From Ruminococcus flavefaciens (GTDB lineage: Bacteria > Bacteroidota > Bacteroidia > Bacteroidales > P3), in contig JAMPAI010000001.1 in NCBI GenBank assembly GCA_023667315.1, forward strand, positions 412,294-476,293: a stretch of 64,000 nt of DNA, read 5' to 3'. Both the position numbers and the translations under genes were made by a program. Positions 16,886 through 33,608 of this stretch are shown piece after piece; within the stretch, counting starts at the first letter, position 1; each line of letters opens with the position of its first letter. Below the pieces are notes generated by a model. That model was not told the DNA's origin. It worked only from the letters and a program-made list of their open reading frames with translations, and made no database searches.

Positions 16886-17046
16886 GCCAAAATATGAAAT
16901 GAAAGTCGGTCAAAGTATGAAATGAAAAGTCGCCAAAATGCGAAATGAAAAACGGCCAAAATATGAAATGAAAAGTCGCCAAAATATGAAATAAAAGTTA
17001 GTCAAAGTATGAAATGAAAAGTCGCCAAAATATGGAATGAAGAAGT
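16886..17046 (+). repeat. Array of seven 23-bp direct repeats without adjacent ATPase gene
   Basis: Copies begin at 16886, 16909, 16932, 16955, 16978, 17001 and 17024, each exactly 23 bases apart. The pattern is GYCAAARTATGAAAT followed by GAAAAGTC. The layout matches the array at 30311-30401 (GCCAAA, five variable bases, AAA, one base, GAAA), but the variable core differs (ATATG here, mostly TTTCC there). The array is in the gap between the oxidoreductase operon and hutI, a gap of 370 bases. A degenerate eighth copy may precede it (16863-16885). After the array, AGTATCTT and AAGATACT (about 17045-17072) form a hairpin. Confidence 0.85.
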
Positions 17047-17095
17047 ATCTTGGGCTTCGCCGAAGATACTGCGCCTCGGCAAAATCAAATCGAGC

Positions 17096-17173: not shown

Positions 17174-18418
17174 ATGCAGGTAGTTACCAATATCAAGGGG
17201 CTGGTGCAGGTGTTGCCGGCTTCGGTTCGCAAGGTTTGCGGCAAGGATATGCAGCAGCTTAAGGTGATAAAGAACGCCTTTCTGTTGTTCGACAAGGGCC
17301 GGATTGTGGATTACGGCACGATGAAGAAGTGGGGCGAGATGGCCTCCGCTTATCCCCGCGTTAAGGAGATCGACGCCACGGGGCGTTTCGTGTTCCCCGC
17401 TTTCTGCGATTCGCACACCCATATCGTGTATGCCGGCAGCCGCGAGATAGAGTATAACGACAAGATCCGCGGGCTCAGCTATGAGGAAATCGCCAAACGG
17501 GGCGGCGGCATCCTCAACTCGGTGGACCGACTGCGCAAGGCTTCCGAAAACGAACTGTTTGAGTCGGCCTGGGAACGTCTGCAGGAAATGTGCGCCTACG
17601 GTACCGGCGCGGCCGAGATAAAGAGCGGCTACGGCCTCGACCTGAAGAGCGAGATGAAGATGCTGCGCGTGATTGCCCGCCTTAAGGAAAAATCGCCCAT
17701 GACGATTAGGTCGAACTTCCTCGGCGCCCACGCCGTGCCCCGCGAATACATAGGCCGGCAGACCGAATATGTGGACTTGATCGTAAAGGAGATGATTCCC
17801 GCCATCGGCAAGGAAAAGCTGGCCGATTTCGTGGATGTTTTCTGCGACAAGGGCTTCTTTACCGTAAAGGATACCGAACGGATTTTAGAAGCGGGGGCGC
17901 GCTACGGCATGCGACCCAAGATCCATGCCAACGAGCTGGCGCTTTCGGGCGGCATTCAGGTGGGCGTGAAGTACAAGGCCCTTTCGGTGGATCATCTGGA
18001 ATATGTGGGCAAGAAGGAAATCGCGGTGCTCAAGGGCAGCGACACCATGCCCACCGTATTGCCCGGTGCGGCTTTCTTTCTGGGCATGCCGCTCAGCCCG
18101 GTGCGCGATATGATGGAAGCCGGACTTCCGGTGGCGATGGCCTCCGACTTCAACCCCGGTTCCTCGCCCTCGGGCAATATGCAGTTCGTGATGTCGCTGG
18201 CCTGCGTGCGCTACCGCATGTATCCCGAAGAGGCGGTGCACGCCACCACCATCAACACCGCCTGCGCCATGGGCGTGAGCGATGAATTGGGCAGTATCTC
18301 CAAGGGCAAGAAGGCCAATTTCTTTATCACCAAAGAAATCCCCACCTACGAGTATATGCCGTATTCTTTCGGCAACAACAAGGTGGACAAGGTGTTCCTG
18401 AACGGAAAACTGGTGTAG
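17174..18418 (+). CDS. hutI: Imidazolonepropionase
   Basis: Third enzyme of histidine degradation: opens the ring of 4-imidazolone-5-propanoate to N-formimino-glutamate. Amidohydrolase fold with the metal motif CDSHTHIVYAGSRE, then GGGILNSVDRLRKA, the metal His in FLGAHAVPREY, and IHANELALSGG. The C-terminal ASDFNPGSSPSGNMQ holds the catalytic Asp. The length of 414 residues is normal. The other hut genes (hutH, hutU, formimino-glutamate enzymes) are not in the window, so the pathway must be completed elsewhere. A BASS-like transporter gene follows on the same strand after 63 bases. Confidence 0.95.
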   Translation: MQVVTNIKGLVQVLPASVRKVCGKDMQQLKVIKNAFLLFDKGRIVDYGTMKKWGEMASAYPRVKEIDATGRFVFPAFCDSHTHIVYAGSREIEYNDKIRGLSYEEIAKRGGGILNSVDRLRKASENELFESAWERLQEMCAYGTGAAEIKSGYGLDLKSEMKMLRVIARLKEKSPMTIRSNFLGAHAVPREYIGRQTEYVDLIVKEMIPAIGKEKLADFVDVFCDKGFFTVKDTERILEAGARYGMRPKIHANELALSGGIQVGVKYKALSVDHLEYVGKKEIAVLKGSDTMPTVLPGAAFFLGMPLSPVRDMMEAGLPVAMASDFNPGSSPSGNMQFVMSLACVRYRMYPEEAVHATTINTACAMGVSDELGSISKGKKANFFITKEIPTYEYMPYSFGNNKVDKVFLNGKLV

Positions 18419-30310: not shown

Positions 30311-30401
30311 GTCAAGTTTCCAAACGGATAATGCGCCAAGTTTCCAAATAAAACTGCGCCAAATTTCCAAACGAAATCGCGCCAAATTTCCAAATAATCG
30401 C
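30311..30401 (+). repeat. Array of four 23-bp direct repeats upstream of an AAA_14 ATPase gene
   Basis: Copies start at 30311 (24 bases), 30335, 30358 and 30381 (21 bases). The core is GCCAARTTTCCAAA, followed by a looser tail that keeps GAAA or AAA. The last copy ends one base before the -7 box TATATTTG, so the array covers the -33 region of the ATPase promoter. The layout matches the 23-bp array at 16886-17046. Confidence 0.85.
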
Positions 30402-30409
30402 TATATTTG
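30402..30409 (+). promoter_or_regulatory. -7 promoter box of the first AAA_14 ATPase
   Basis: TATATTTG, 18 bases before the ATG at 30427. The region where a -33 element should be is occupied by the last direct repeat, which suggests that a repeat-binding protein controls this promoter. Confidence 0.7.
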
Positions 30410-30426
30410 CATTAAATATCAGTGGA

Positions 30427-31701
30427 ATGGAGTATCGGAAAAGAATTGTAGACCAATTGTTAAGGGATAAACTGGATGCGATGGGCGCGGTATTGATAGA
30501 GGGGCCTAAGGCTTGTGGTAAAACAACTACGGCGGCGCAGCAGGCAAAGAGCATCCTGTATATGGATGATCCGGATAGGCAGGAATACTATAGGGAACTG
30601 GCGCAAACGGATATCAAGTTGTTGCTTGCCGGCGATAACCCCCGGCTTATCGACGAATGGCAGGATGTGCCTCGGTTTTGGGATGCCATCCGGTTTGAGG
30701 TTGACCATAGGGGAGAGGATGGCTTGTTTATGCTTACCGGTTCGGCGGTTCCAGCCGATTTTACAAAGATTCATCATACGGGAACGGGTAGATATGGATG
30801 GCTTACCATGCGCCCGATGAGCCTGTGGGAGTCCGGCGAGTCTTCGGGGGAGGTGAGTCTGGCCGATTTGTTCCGTGACCCGAAAAAAATAGCGGCACGG
30901 AATAAGCATACATTGCCTGCGCTTGCCTATCTGATATGTCGGGGCGGGTGGCCGAAATCGCTGCAGAAGAAAACGGAACGTGCGGCCTTGCTGCAGGCTT
31001 CCGAATACTATAAGGCTATCGTCAACAGCGATATATCCAGGGTGGATAATGTGAAGCGAAACCCAGAGCGCACCAAGCGCATTATGCGTTCATACGCGCG
31101 TCTGCAAGGTATGCAGGCCAGCATAGCCACGATATTGGCGGATATAGCCGTCAATGAAACGGAAAATATCAGCGATGAAACGGTTGATTCGTACCTTTCG
31201 GCCTTGCGCAAGATATTCGTTATCGAGGACATGCCGGCCTGGAATCCCAATTTGAGGAGTAAGACCGCCGTCAGGACATCGGACACCCGGTATTATGTTG
31301 ACCCTTCCATCGGGGCGGCCTCGCTCGGTCTCGGCCCCGACGACTTGATAAACGATTTAAAGGCGATGGGTATCTTTTTTGAAACCTTGTGTATCCGCGA
31401 CCTGCGGGTCTATGCCGATGCCTTGGACGGCACCGTTTATCACTATCGGGATAAAAACGGCCTGGAATGTGATGCCGTGCTGCATCTGCGGAACGGTTCG
31501 TACGGGCTTATCGAGATCAAGCTGGGTGGAGAAAGTTCGATAGCCGAGGGGGTAAAGACCCTTTCGGCCTTGACCAATATTATCGACACCACAAGAATGA
31601 AAGCCCCGTCTTTCCGCATGGTGCTCACCGGCGTGGGCGAGTTCGCCTACCAACGAGCCGACGGCATCTACGTGGTTCCCGTGGGGTGCTTGAAAGATTA
31701 G
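30427..31701 (+). CDS. AAA_14/DUF4143 ATPase (first copy)
   Basis: A 424-residue protein of the large family of uncharacterised AAA ATPases abundant in Bacteroidota and archaea. Walker A is GPKACGKTT (residues 26-34) and Walker B LIDEW (74-78). LTGSAVPAD is the sensor strand and MRPMSLWESGES is typical of the DUF4143 group. The C-terminal domain resembles a PD-(D/E)xK nuclease fold: Glu319, Asp349 (LECDAVL) and Glu363-Ile-Lys365 (LIEIKLGG). No signal peptide or membrane segment is present. Proposed roles for the family include defence, DNA-linked regulation and selfish behaviour; none is proven. The array directly upstream suggests autoregulation. It is followed by a broken XRE regulator. Confidence 0.88.
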   Translation: MEYRKRIVDQLLRDKLDAMGAVLIEGPKACGKTTTAAQQAKSILYMDDPDRQEYYRELAQTDIKLLLAGDNPRLIDEWQDVPRFWDAIRFEVDHRGEDGLFMLTGSAVPADFTKIHHTGTGRYGWLTMRPMSLWESGESSGEVSLADLFRDPKKIAARNKHTLPALAYLICRGGWPKSLQKKTERAALLQASEYYKAIVNSDISRVDNVKRNPERTKRIMRSYARLQGMQASIATILADIAVNETENISDETVDSYLSALRKIFVIEDMPAWNPNLRSKTAVRTSDTRYYVDPSIGAASLGLGPDDLINDLKAMGIFFETLCIRDLRVYADALDGTVYHYRDKNGLECDAVLHLRNGSYGLIEIKLGGESSIAEGVKTLSALTNIIDTTRMKAPSFRMVLTGVGEFAYQRADGIYVVPVGCLKD

Positions 31702-31727: not shown

Positions 31728-32093
31728 TTGTTATATTTGCAATGCGTTAAAAATGCGTCATTCGAGCGTCTTTGCGGGCTCGCCAATGGTGCGGTGAACA
31801 GTATGAACGAAAATGTAACATCAAAGACATTGGAGAAAATACTACATTCGTTTCCTGAGATCAATAAAGAATGGTTGCTAACGGGAGAGGGTGAAATGAA
31901 AAGAAGCGGAACAATACATCAGACCGGCCGCAGTTCGACGGCAATCATTGGCAGTGGCGTGCATGTTAACAGCACGACCTCAATAGACAAGGCGATGGAC
32001 CGGATTGCCGAACAGCAGAAGTTGACGAAAAAGGCCTTGACACAGATAGACAGATTGATATCCATAATAGAAAACAACCTTACAAAGAAATAA
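31728..32093 (+). pseudogene. XRE-type regulator fragment lacking its N-terminus
   Basis: The frame encodes VKNASFERLCGLANGAVNSM and then SFPEINKEWLLTGEGEM, the second half of the HTH and the linker found in many Bacteroidota XRE/phage-type regulators, followed by a coiled-coil tail (AEQQKLTKKALTQIDRLISI). The first 15-20 residues of the HTH are missing. In their place is a promoter-like TATATTTG (31732-31739) and no in-frame ATG before 31803. Starting at that ATG gives 96 residues without an intact HTH. It begins 26 bases after the ATPase stop. It could still be expressed as a short oligomerising protein; I favour a remnant. Confidence 0.6.
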
Positions 32094-32129
32094 TGTCATA
32101 AGTTAAATATATGAGTCTGAAGACTTGAA

Positions 32130-33482
32130 TCACAACAGCCCTGCCATATAGACAGGCAGGCATATTATGTCCTCTTCTTTGCGAAGATCTTTCGTATAGA
32201 GAAGATAGCGTTGCTGGATGCGGGAGGAAAATTTCCGTTGGAACTCGTCGAGCGATTTGTGGGATTTGTAACCGGAAGACTTGACTTCGATCGGGCATAT
32301 CTTGTCTTTTCTGCTTATGAGGAAGTCGATCTCGTAGGAGCGGGGTTCGGTTGCCTCCGGTACCTTTTCTTTGAACGTATAGTAATACAGCGAATTTCCC
32401 GAGGCTCTCAGCAGTTGTGCCACCACATTCTCGTAGAGATAGCCTAAATCGGCAGAAAGTTTGTCTGTGAGCAGTTTCCGGTAGATGACGTTTTCCGTAA
32501 AATCCTTATCCATGAATGCCAGCGAAACAAAGAGCCCCGTGTCGGCGATAAACATCTTGAAGAAGTCGTAGGATGTGTGCAGCGCGAACCCGACATTGGG
32601 ATCGTTGGCATGATAGGCAAAATTCACGGTCTTGGATTTGTCGATATCCTGAAAGATTTCCTCAAGACGGGAGAACCTTGCATTCTCGATAACGTTCCCC
32701 ACGCGGTACCGCATCGTATTGCGGGCCAGTTCCGCCGGAATGGACTTGAAGACTGCCGAAGCCCTTCCTCTATCGTCTATCTTTTCAAAATCATCGAGAT
32801 ACAGTTTTATAATATCCCGCTTTATATCATCTACGGCTTCAAAATCGGAGCTTCGGAGATACGCGGCAACCGCCTGCGGCATCCCTCCCACAAGCATATA
32901 GAGCCGGAAGAGTTTCATCATGTCGCGGTTTACGGCATCGCCCATGGGTTTTAGCCTTTGATAGGCATATCGTATCAGTTCAAAGGTCGGTTCTTTTCCT
33001 ATTGCCCAAAGAAATTCTTCAAAATCCATTGGATACATGTCAATCCGTCTTTCTTCACTGGGAATGAGGATATCCTTTGTGTTCTTCTTGATGGAAATAA
33101 GCGAGCCTGTCTCGATATAGTGGTAGCGGCCGTCTTTTACCAGATGCTTGATGGCCTGTCGGGCCTTCGGACAGAACTGCACTTCGTCAAAAATGATGCA
33201 GGACTTGCCCGGCGTGAGTTTGGTGCCGGTTAAAGATTGCAGACTTATGAAGAAATAGTGCAGGTCAGAGAGGTCGTTGAATAAATCAATGATACTCTGT
33301 TTGACGTTTGTAAAGTCAATGAGCAAGTAATTGTCATAAGCGTTGCGGGCAAATTCCTTCGCGATGGTGGATTTACCGACCCGTCTTGCGCCCTCAATCA
33401 ACAGGGCCGTTTCCCCTGCCGATTTTTCTTTCCATACTTCCATTTGGGCGTATATTTTACGCTTAAATATCAAGTGTTTCAT
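32130..33482 (-). CDS. AAA_14/DUF4143 ATPase (second copy, opposite orientation)
   Basis: A 450-residue ATPase only distantly related to the one at 30427. Walker A is GARRVGKST (31-39) and Walker B CIIFDE (95-100). SGLISIK-type sensor sequence (ETGSLISIKKN) and YPMDFEEFLWA follow. The C-terminal half carries a PD-(D/E)xK-like set: Glu351 (YLYENVVAQLL), Asp386 (YEIDFLI) and Glu399-Val-Lys401 (CPIEVKSS). No transmembrane segment is present. It points towards the first ATPase, with the XRE fragment between them, and has its own array of 34-bp repeats upstream. Function unknown; a sequence-specific DNA or protein remodeller with autoregulation is my inference. Confidence 0.88.
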   Translation of the reverse strand: MKHLIFKRKIYAQMEVWKEKSAGETALLIEGARRVGKSTIAKEFARNAYDNYLLIDFTNVKQSIIDLFNDLSDLHYFFISLQSLTGTKLTPGKSCIIFDEVQFCPKARQAIKHLVKDGRYHYIETGSLISIKKNTKDILIPSEERRIDMYPMDFEEFLWAIGKEPTFELIRYAYQRLKPMGDAVNRDMMKLFRLYMLVGGMPQAVAAYLRSSDFEAVDDIKRDIIKLYLDDFEKIDDRGRASAVFKSIPAELARNTMRYRVGNVIENARFSRLEEIFQDIDKSKTVNFAYHANDPNVGFALHTSYDFFKMFIADTGLFVSLAFMDKDFTENVIYRKLLTDKLSADLGYLYENVVAQLLRASGNSLYYYTFKEKVPEATEPRSYEIDFLISRKDKICPIEVKSSGYKSHKSLDEFQRKFSSRIQQRYLLYTKDLRKEEDIICLPVYMAGLL

Positions 33483-33501: not shown

Positions 33502-33509
33502 CAAAATTA
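33502..33509 (-). promoter_or_regulatory. -7 promoter box of the second AAA_14 ATPase
   Basis: The minus strand reads TAATTTTG, 19 bases before the ATG. A TTTTG lies 19 bases further upstream and is part of the first direct repeat (33520-33553), so the repeat supplies the -33 element. Confidence 0.65.
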
Positions 33510-33519
33510 ACTGTCTTGG

Positions 33520-33608
33520 CGGAAACGGCAAAATGTTTTACTATGAAAATGTACAGAAACGGCAAAATGTTTTACTATAAAATTGTACGGAAATGGCAAA
33601 ATGTTTGC
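33520..33608 (-). repeat. Array of 34-bp direct repeats upstream of the second ATPase
   Basis: Two full copies (33520-33553 and 33554-33587) and a partial third (33588-33608). On the plus strand the shared core is GAAACGGCAAAATGTTTTAC with TAT and AAAATGTA following. The period is 11 bases longer than that of the 23-bp arrays, about one helical turn. The core does not match the 23-bp family apart from GCAAAA. Confidence 0.85.

Follow-up and report, generated by a model that had tools for sequence, protein, structure and literature searches.

The closest described relative of the locus studied here is PDC-S01, a candidate defence system listed by PADLOC. The excerpted text of PMC12988326 describes it as the fusion of an ATPase with a PD-(D/E)xK member, ranks it fourth among the most common defences across prokaryotes, and places it with the most abundant of their candidate defence genes, 39,480 having been detected; validation is pending for most such candidates (PDCs). 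The two ATPases encoded in the window, i.e., the whole stretch of 64,000 nucleotides analysed here, match the PDC-S01 models over nearly their full length. The first-pass annotation of this DNA held that no mechanism had been described for these ATPases; we found that the family itself is listed as a defence candidate, and a search of open-access papers returned no account of how PDC-S01 works. A defence role is suspected from the PADLOC match and from parts of PMC12988326 and PMC13356809. The same excerpts of PMC12988326 mention no operator array, autoregulation, or recognition code, whereas most of the genes sampled here have repeats or palindromes at their promoters, which co-diversify with the protein in one clade. 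The arrays are likewise absent from the open-access literature that we searched on DUF4143, AAA_14, COG1373, PDC-S01, and operator repeats (most subscription journals and preprints fall outside it), and from the available portion of PMC4158269; 19 COG1373 genes appear among horizontally shared genes in the excerpts of PMC10782964.

Direct repeats at a defence promoter are known from E. coli, in which RptR bound to three direct repeats controls the promoter of a defence island (PMC12255303, in excerpt). The arrangement proposed here for the ATPase would be alike in that a protein sits on direct repeats of such a promoter; however, RptR is a separate, small repressor whose site, TAGCTA, is conserved, whereas here no conserved partner gene was found and the site varies by gene. 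Tandem repeats of 23 nt between the genes of a Bacteroidota genome are also known, as BrickBuilt, a minisatellite/MITE of Porphyromonas gingivalis whose unit, AGAYCATARTATCCTCTCRTRTG, lies in a single element with 19 occurrences (PMC4596501, in excerpt; the word ATPase is absent from its main text). We rejected a link to BrickBuilt, as its unit is by eye unrelated to the core GCCAARTTTCCAAAY plus spacer described below. Autoregulated iterons and toxin-antitoxin operators likewise involve a protein bound to tandem sites in its own promoter, with many specificities present side by side in a cell. The present case differs in its proposed reader, a putative ATPase-nuclease whose cassette comprises one gene, with no conserved partner seen. 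The promoter repeats offer a first handle on PDC-S01, namely a candidate DNA ligand for many of its members that is predicted from sequence alone.

ATPase genes and repeat arrays in the window

The window covers positions 412294-476293 of contig C11 in a 2.93-Mb genome of 88 contigs (G000), which belongs to the Bacteroidota judging by its relatives. ATPase1 (30427..31701, + strand) encodes a protein of 424 aa with an AAA_14 domain (PF13173, E = 2.8e-14, 53.7 bits) and a DUF4143 domain (PF13635, E = 5.1e-32, 111.3 bits), both above the gathering cut-offs (27 and 28.1), and the PADLOC model PDLC04790 for PDC-S01 matches residues 2-422 (E = 1.2e-61). Among PDB entries, no relative was found by sequence and none below E 0.5 by profile. 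In 54 homologs of the same clade (clade 1), the columns of the Walker A motif GPKACGKT (residues 26-33; 30502..30525, +) are invariant or nearly so except residue 29, with G26, K28, C30, G31, K32, and T33 fully invariant. Residues 215-268 (31069..31230, +) form a segment that, from its position and sequence and by analogy with related ATPases, we take to be a putative winged helix; the co-change of repeat and protein peaks at about residues 226-275. Near the end of the protein lies a PD-(D/E)xK-like motif, D349 ... E363-x-K365 (31471..31521, +), whose three named residues are invariant in the 54 homologs; the fold name is the one given to the family in the excerpts of PMC12988326.

Upstream of ATPase1 are four direct repeats of 23 bp (30311..30403, +), which the first-pass annotation had reported and which were confirmed. 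The units start at 30311, 30335, 30358, and 30381 (spacings 24, 23, and 23) and share the core GCCAARTTTCCAAAY, exact in three units and with one mismatch in the first. Tandem Repeats Finder gave the array a score of 100, and the repeat score of the upstream region was matched by 0 of 200 dinucleotide shuffles. When up to one mismatch was allowed, the core had four copies in the 2.93-Mb genome, all inside its own array. The sequence TATATTTG (30402..30409, +), a -7 box of the Bacteroidota type, adjoins the array, and the -33 region falls within the last repeat. The one-base gap between array and box given previously depends on where the unit is cut: the last core ends at 30395, leaving six bases, and the full 23-bp unit overlaps the box by 2 bases.

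The second 23-bp array noted in the first pass, with the same frame and a different core, was also recovered. It lies at 16886..17046 (+) and consists of seven units (GCCAAAATATGAAATGAAA...) with higher-order 46-bp repeats. All seven genome-wide copies of its core are within it; both cores searched genome-wide are private to their arrays. No ATPase gene adjoins this orphan array in the window. A relative (G022) carries, at the corresponding site, an array of identical core directly followed by the gene of a 425-aa ATPase, 62% identical to ATPase1, past which the sequence rejoins the window at 17050; by eye, the deletion in the window extends from about the -7 box to just beyond the stop codon, with the array retained. 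Because G022 has an ATPase behind the same-core array at this site, the orphan array is the remnant of a lost clade-1 ATPase, and the pairing of array and ATPase extends even to this case. The array was ruled out as a promoter element of the amidohydrolase gene at 17174-18418, given that the ATPase of G022 is directly behind it. At the ATPase1 site, G022 is without ATPase1 and has a single repeat unit left, joined to window position 32116; G042 has neither ATPase there, and G079 has ATPase1. Elsewhere in the genome, at G000:C5:14577-14669 (L034), a broken AAA_14 gene stands behind an intact-looking 32-bp array, another array outliving its gene.

A second AAA_14/DUF4143 gene and its array had been overlooked in the first-pass inventory of the window. 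ATPase2 (32130..33482, - strand; 450 aa) exceeds the same Pfam cut-offs (PF13173, 87.6 bits vs. 27; PF13635, 59.2 bits vs. 28.1) and matches PDC-S01 over residues 6-449 (PDLC04786, E = 4.9e-102). It is preceded by three direct repeats of 34 bp (AAACATTTTGCCRTTTC...; 33505..33606, -), identified by Tandem Repeats Finder and shuffles, the last of which enters a -7-like sequence, TAATTTTG, at 33502-33509. Between the two ATPase genes is an orf of 121 aa (31728-32093, +) with no match in Pfam, PADLOC, or NCBIfam; judged by eye, it resembles the C-terminal part of phage-repressor-like proteins. This stretch is missing from G022 along with ATPase1.

Promoter repeats in the family and their co-variation with the protein

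Repeats are commoner upstream of these ATPase genes than upstream of other genes, an enrichment that the first-pass annotation had proposed to check. In the genome carrying the window, shuffles of each upstream region identified a direct repeat at 15 of 22 DUF4143 genes vs. 8 of 102 control upstreams (one of the eight, L025, is an ATPase array seen from the neighbor gene). When palindromes, which precede 10 of the 102 control genes, were included, the figures were 18/22 vs. 16/102, and four of the 22 genes had neither at threshold; for five other AAA_14 genes, the count was 4/5. A simpler score (≥14) was reached by 19 of 35 AAA_14 matches, a set that includes other ATPases and gene fragments, vs. 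6 of 170 controls taken from these same stretches, the six including the orphan array of the window and L025. Repeats at the promoter of the gene itself are thus more frequent than chance would give.

Among the bacterial members of the family sampled more widely, such arrays are likewise frequent. A direct repeat or palindrome was found at 26 of 30 non-Bacteroidota loci from 16 genomes (ATPase loci only; the genomes were reached via clade-1 homologs, which themselves make up part of the loci), at 23 of 28 loci in a Bacteroidota phylum sample (ATPase loci only; one is an own gene, and L206 and L215 were dropped from the 30), at 21 of 29 loci of clade 2 (ATPase loci only; one is ATPase2 of the window), and at 9 of 12 plasmid loci (ATPase loci only, hand-picked from 60 matches). 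L141 was dropped from the clade-2 sets for want of an orf (29/30 here and 69/70 in the larger set), and the plasmid loci span Bacteroidota, Bacillota, Actinomycetota, Fusobacteriota, Chlamydiota, and Gammaproteobacteria. The period was 22-23, 32-34, or 46 in 57 of 59 significant direct repeats, and 40 and 60 in the remaining two. The phylum sample is mostly palindromic (palindromes 19/28, direct repeats 10/28), and the form of the operator therefore differs by clade.

Among the best 80 of 373 homologs in a collection of genome contigs, clade 1 extends across distant phyla at 62-89% identity. Two or more units in the frame GCCAA-variable-AA precede all 79 readable genes of this set, by a method that seeks that frame (L038, with 9 nt of upstream sequence, was left out), and a motif-free repeat score reached 14 or more in 73 of the 79. 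Unit spacing is exactly 23 in 210 of 219 cases, the window included; an array has 2-8 units, which differ from one another, with frame and core staying constant. There was no conserved neighbor gene, the most shared one being found in 3 other loci (full flanks were present at 44 of 80 loci, queries were taken only from loci of ≥6 kb, and the two top rows, L074 and L087, represent the ATPase itself read in antisense). A conserved partner gene as reader of the repeats was rejected for these loci on that ground. As to phage-borne decoy arrays, one tandem core pattern searched in viral contigs gave 0 matches, which says little for other cores.

We then related the core to the protein by branch counts, which superseded mutual information computed without a tree. 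On a tree of 81 proteins, the co-change of repeat and protein was highest at residues 226-250. Guesses for residue 251 (E-CCAA, D-CCGA, A-CTAA or A-CATAA, and K-GGTAA) were written down before a test on new, held-out loci, in which arrays were placed by the frame only, with flat weights in the core. The held-out set comprised 50 of 60 loci; L329 (no orf), L323, L324, and L351 (no array placed), and six loci ≥95% identical to training loci were dropped. K/R251 went with G at repeat position 11 in 19/19 loci vs. 5/31 of the others, and D251 with C11G12 in 5/5 vs. 0/45. The 50 loci contain one gene twice (L315 and L344) as well as close relatives; hence, they were thinned to <75% mutual identity (29 loci), in which K/R251 had G11 in 7/7 vs. 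3/22 and D251 had CG in 4/4 vs. 0/25. The remaining guesses failed: E251 had CA in 0/3 (contexts NEE and IRE), A/G251 had TA or AT in 0/5, showing CACAA or ACCAA, and the full GT accompanied K/R251 in just 7/19. A one-residue code at position 251 is therefore too simple and was rejected.

The joint set of training and held-out loci was then examined. On its tree of 131 proteins, residue 251 ranked top of 329 columns for co-change with repeat positions 7-12, and the best 25-residue window was 248-272, a value reached in 20 of 1000 permutations; two columns distant from 251 in the sequence, residues 8 and 11, also scored high with single repeat positions. The triplet SDE at residues 249-251 occurs with CCAA in 49/49 tips. 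The tree has 7 gains of D251 and 7 of CG, 6 of which coincide by branch (0/20000 random placements); all 13 CG tips carry D251, and CG is absent in 8 of 21 D251 tips, of which seven belong to Treponema. G11 is present in every one of the 22 K/R251 tips; the gains of the two share only 1 branch, which is not significant (reached in 2344/20000 random placements), and both joint losses coincide on the tree. Nine tips have G11 without K/R251, eight of them in groups NEE, IRE, and GES, and more than one residue would therefore read position 11. In clade 2 (33-bp repeats, 50 taxa), no localized protein region stood out for co-change with the repeats; that test used 50 of 69 loci, leaving out 18 of a divergent subgroup whose repeat register is unsure and one below the score/copy cut.

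Collectively, the core co-varies with specific residues in clade 1, and the independence of repeat core and ATPase sequence that the first-pass annotation had asked about does not hold in the 23-bp clade; clade 2 gave no localized signal. The proposal of a cassette family in which each ATPase, or a partner, is specific for its own repeat is supported in the 23-bp clade at the level of sequence, with no partner conserved, and the repeat appears to be specific to the gene product. Because there is no conserved neighbor and the core follows residues of the protein, we take the ATPase as the probable reader of the repeats and the promoter of its own gene as the probable target. The codons of residues 249-251 of ATPase1 (Ser-Asp-Glu; 31171..31179, +) would, judging by the co-variation, mark the start of a recognition helix that reads repeat positions 10-12. 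Such residue-to-base links are testable by swapping single residues or bases.

Array position and proposed mode of action

The distance from array to promoter is fixed. A -7 box is present 30-45 nt past the array in 53 of the 64 Bacteroidota arrays examined (that of the window and those of 63 loci), and each of the 53 boxes is at 36-39 nt; the array therefore ends just upstream of -33 in these cases. The distance is 37 nt in 34 of the 53, whose spacers share a median of 46% of their bases, and TTG is found 17-23 nt ahead of the box in 28 of the 53. The window gene and L065 have a distance of 6. The first-pass view that the array covers the -33 site is accordingly right for ATPase1 and does not hold as a general rule. 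By eye, a -10-like hexamer is at 5-6 or 26-28 in 14 of 16 non-Bacteroidota loci, although another hexamer is equal or better in L095, L097, L098, and L101; those of L103 and L109 are at 3 and 1. The differences between these distances (31, 21, and 10) come close to whole turns of the helix, and the fixed distances lend some support to the helical phasing of array and promoter suggested previously.

We consider it likely that each such ATPase (defence candidate PDC-S01) is a single-gene, self-regulating ATPase-nuclease that binds its own co-diversifying operator and sets its own expression, probably as a repressor. The cassette would consist of one gene and its operator. A putative helix-turn-helix (winged-helix) segment between the AAA_14 domain and the PD-(D/E)xK-like end would contact the repeats, and a multimer of the ATPase would assemble at the promoter of its gene on tandem sites with a spacing of 22-23 or 32-34 bp. 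The bound ATPase would set its own expression, most likely via repression, and expression would rise once the bound protein is lost through infection, dilution, or ATP state. Residues 249-251 may jointly read the variable core, protein and core changing together, and this co-change would keep the at least 22 paralogs of one cell insulated from each other; if true, it explains the separation of more than 20 paralogs in one cell. A more far-reaching version makes the array a functional component of a widely distributed immune system: an ATPase-nuclease is parked on its own DNA address, a code at residues 249-251 (SDE-CCAA, D251-CCGA, K/R251-G11, IRE-TGA, and NEE-CGGA) averts cross-talk, and dozens of copies coexist and are re-addressed by two or three residue changes. 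We regard that version as doubtful.

The ATPase might instead activate its own gene from the array, creating positive feedback and an on/off switch. A position just upstream of the -33 element is one used by activators, and it is there, at a fixed distance, that 53 of the 64 Bacteroidota arrays end. However, about 6 nt separate the array end from the -7/-10 box in the window gene, in L065, and in several genes of Treponema and Firmicutes, so that the array covers -33/-35, which suits blocking. Because some arrays cover this site, repression appears likelier, and we think activation unlikely, although it is the strongest of the alternatives.

A less probable reading takes the array as a docking platform in the immune act itself, on which the ATPase is parked as an inactive or sensing multimer and from which it is released or loaded onto foreign DNA upon invasion. 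The 2-8 units exceed the needs of simple repression, the ATPase is joined to a nuclease-like end, and the family is among the defence candidates of PADLOC, all of which would fit docking. The fixed promoter distance, in contrast, points to transcription, and the one tandem core pattern without a viral-contig match counts against docking as well, with little weight for other cores.

It is very improbable that the array is the target or end sequence of a small mobile element, even though clade-1 members of 62-89% identity occur in distant phyla and gene losses leave repeats at two sites: the ATPase1 core has no copy on the 3' side, and both losses, by eye, leave units in place and are irregular, unlike a clean excision together with the array. 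Least credible of all is that the repeats are minisatellites whose copy-number changes switch or tune expression without the ATPase as reader, as copy numbers of 2-8 and the higher-order 46-bp repeats of the orphan array might suggest, but units vary within an array while frame and core persist, and the core tracks residues 249-251.

Element ends and possible mobility around AAA_14 genes

Several minor observations concern the surroundings of AAA_14 genes. A 33-nt element end, CCCTAATGTGTCAACCTTTTTCAGGGAAAGTCA, has 8 copies in G000 (≤3 mismatches), always at contig ends (C7, C11, C15 at both ends, C22, C44, C55, and C87). Five of the 8 copies are directly before an AAA_14 array, and one each precedes an AbiE-like gene pair (by eye), an apparent remnant array, and an unrelated gene; an insertion element may prefer AAA_14 arrays or defence genes. 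The locus G000:C87:83378-83934 (L371) has a related, though distinct, element end ahead of another AAA_14 gene, with no direct repeat in the 89 nt remaining upstream. On contig C22, at about 247200-247480 (L017), an apparent truncated AAA_14 start with its own repeat is found, by eye, immediately ahead of a further AAA_14 gene, as though one cassette had inserted into a second. On C4 (L009), an AAA_14 gene has a sigma-70-like promoter with a 26-bp repeat, whose score was reached by 0 of 200 shuffles in one test and was just below threshold in the other; this contig may be foreign (assembly contamination, 4.98%). Five contigs of a viral collection (L363-L367) encode relatives of ATPase1 with short repeats in front, by eye, L365 and L367 looking identical, and the ATPase cassettes seem to ride on mobile elements.
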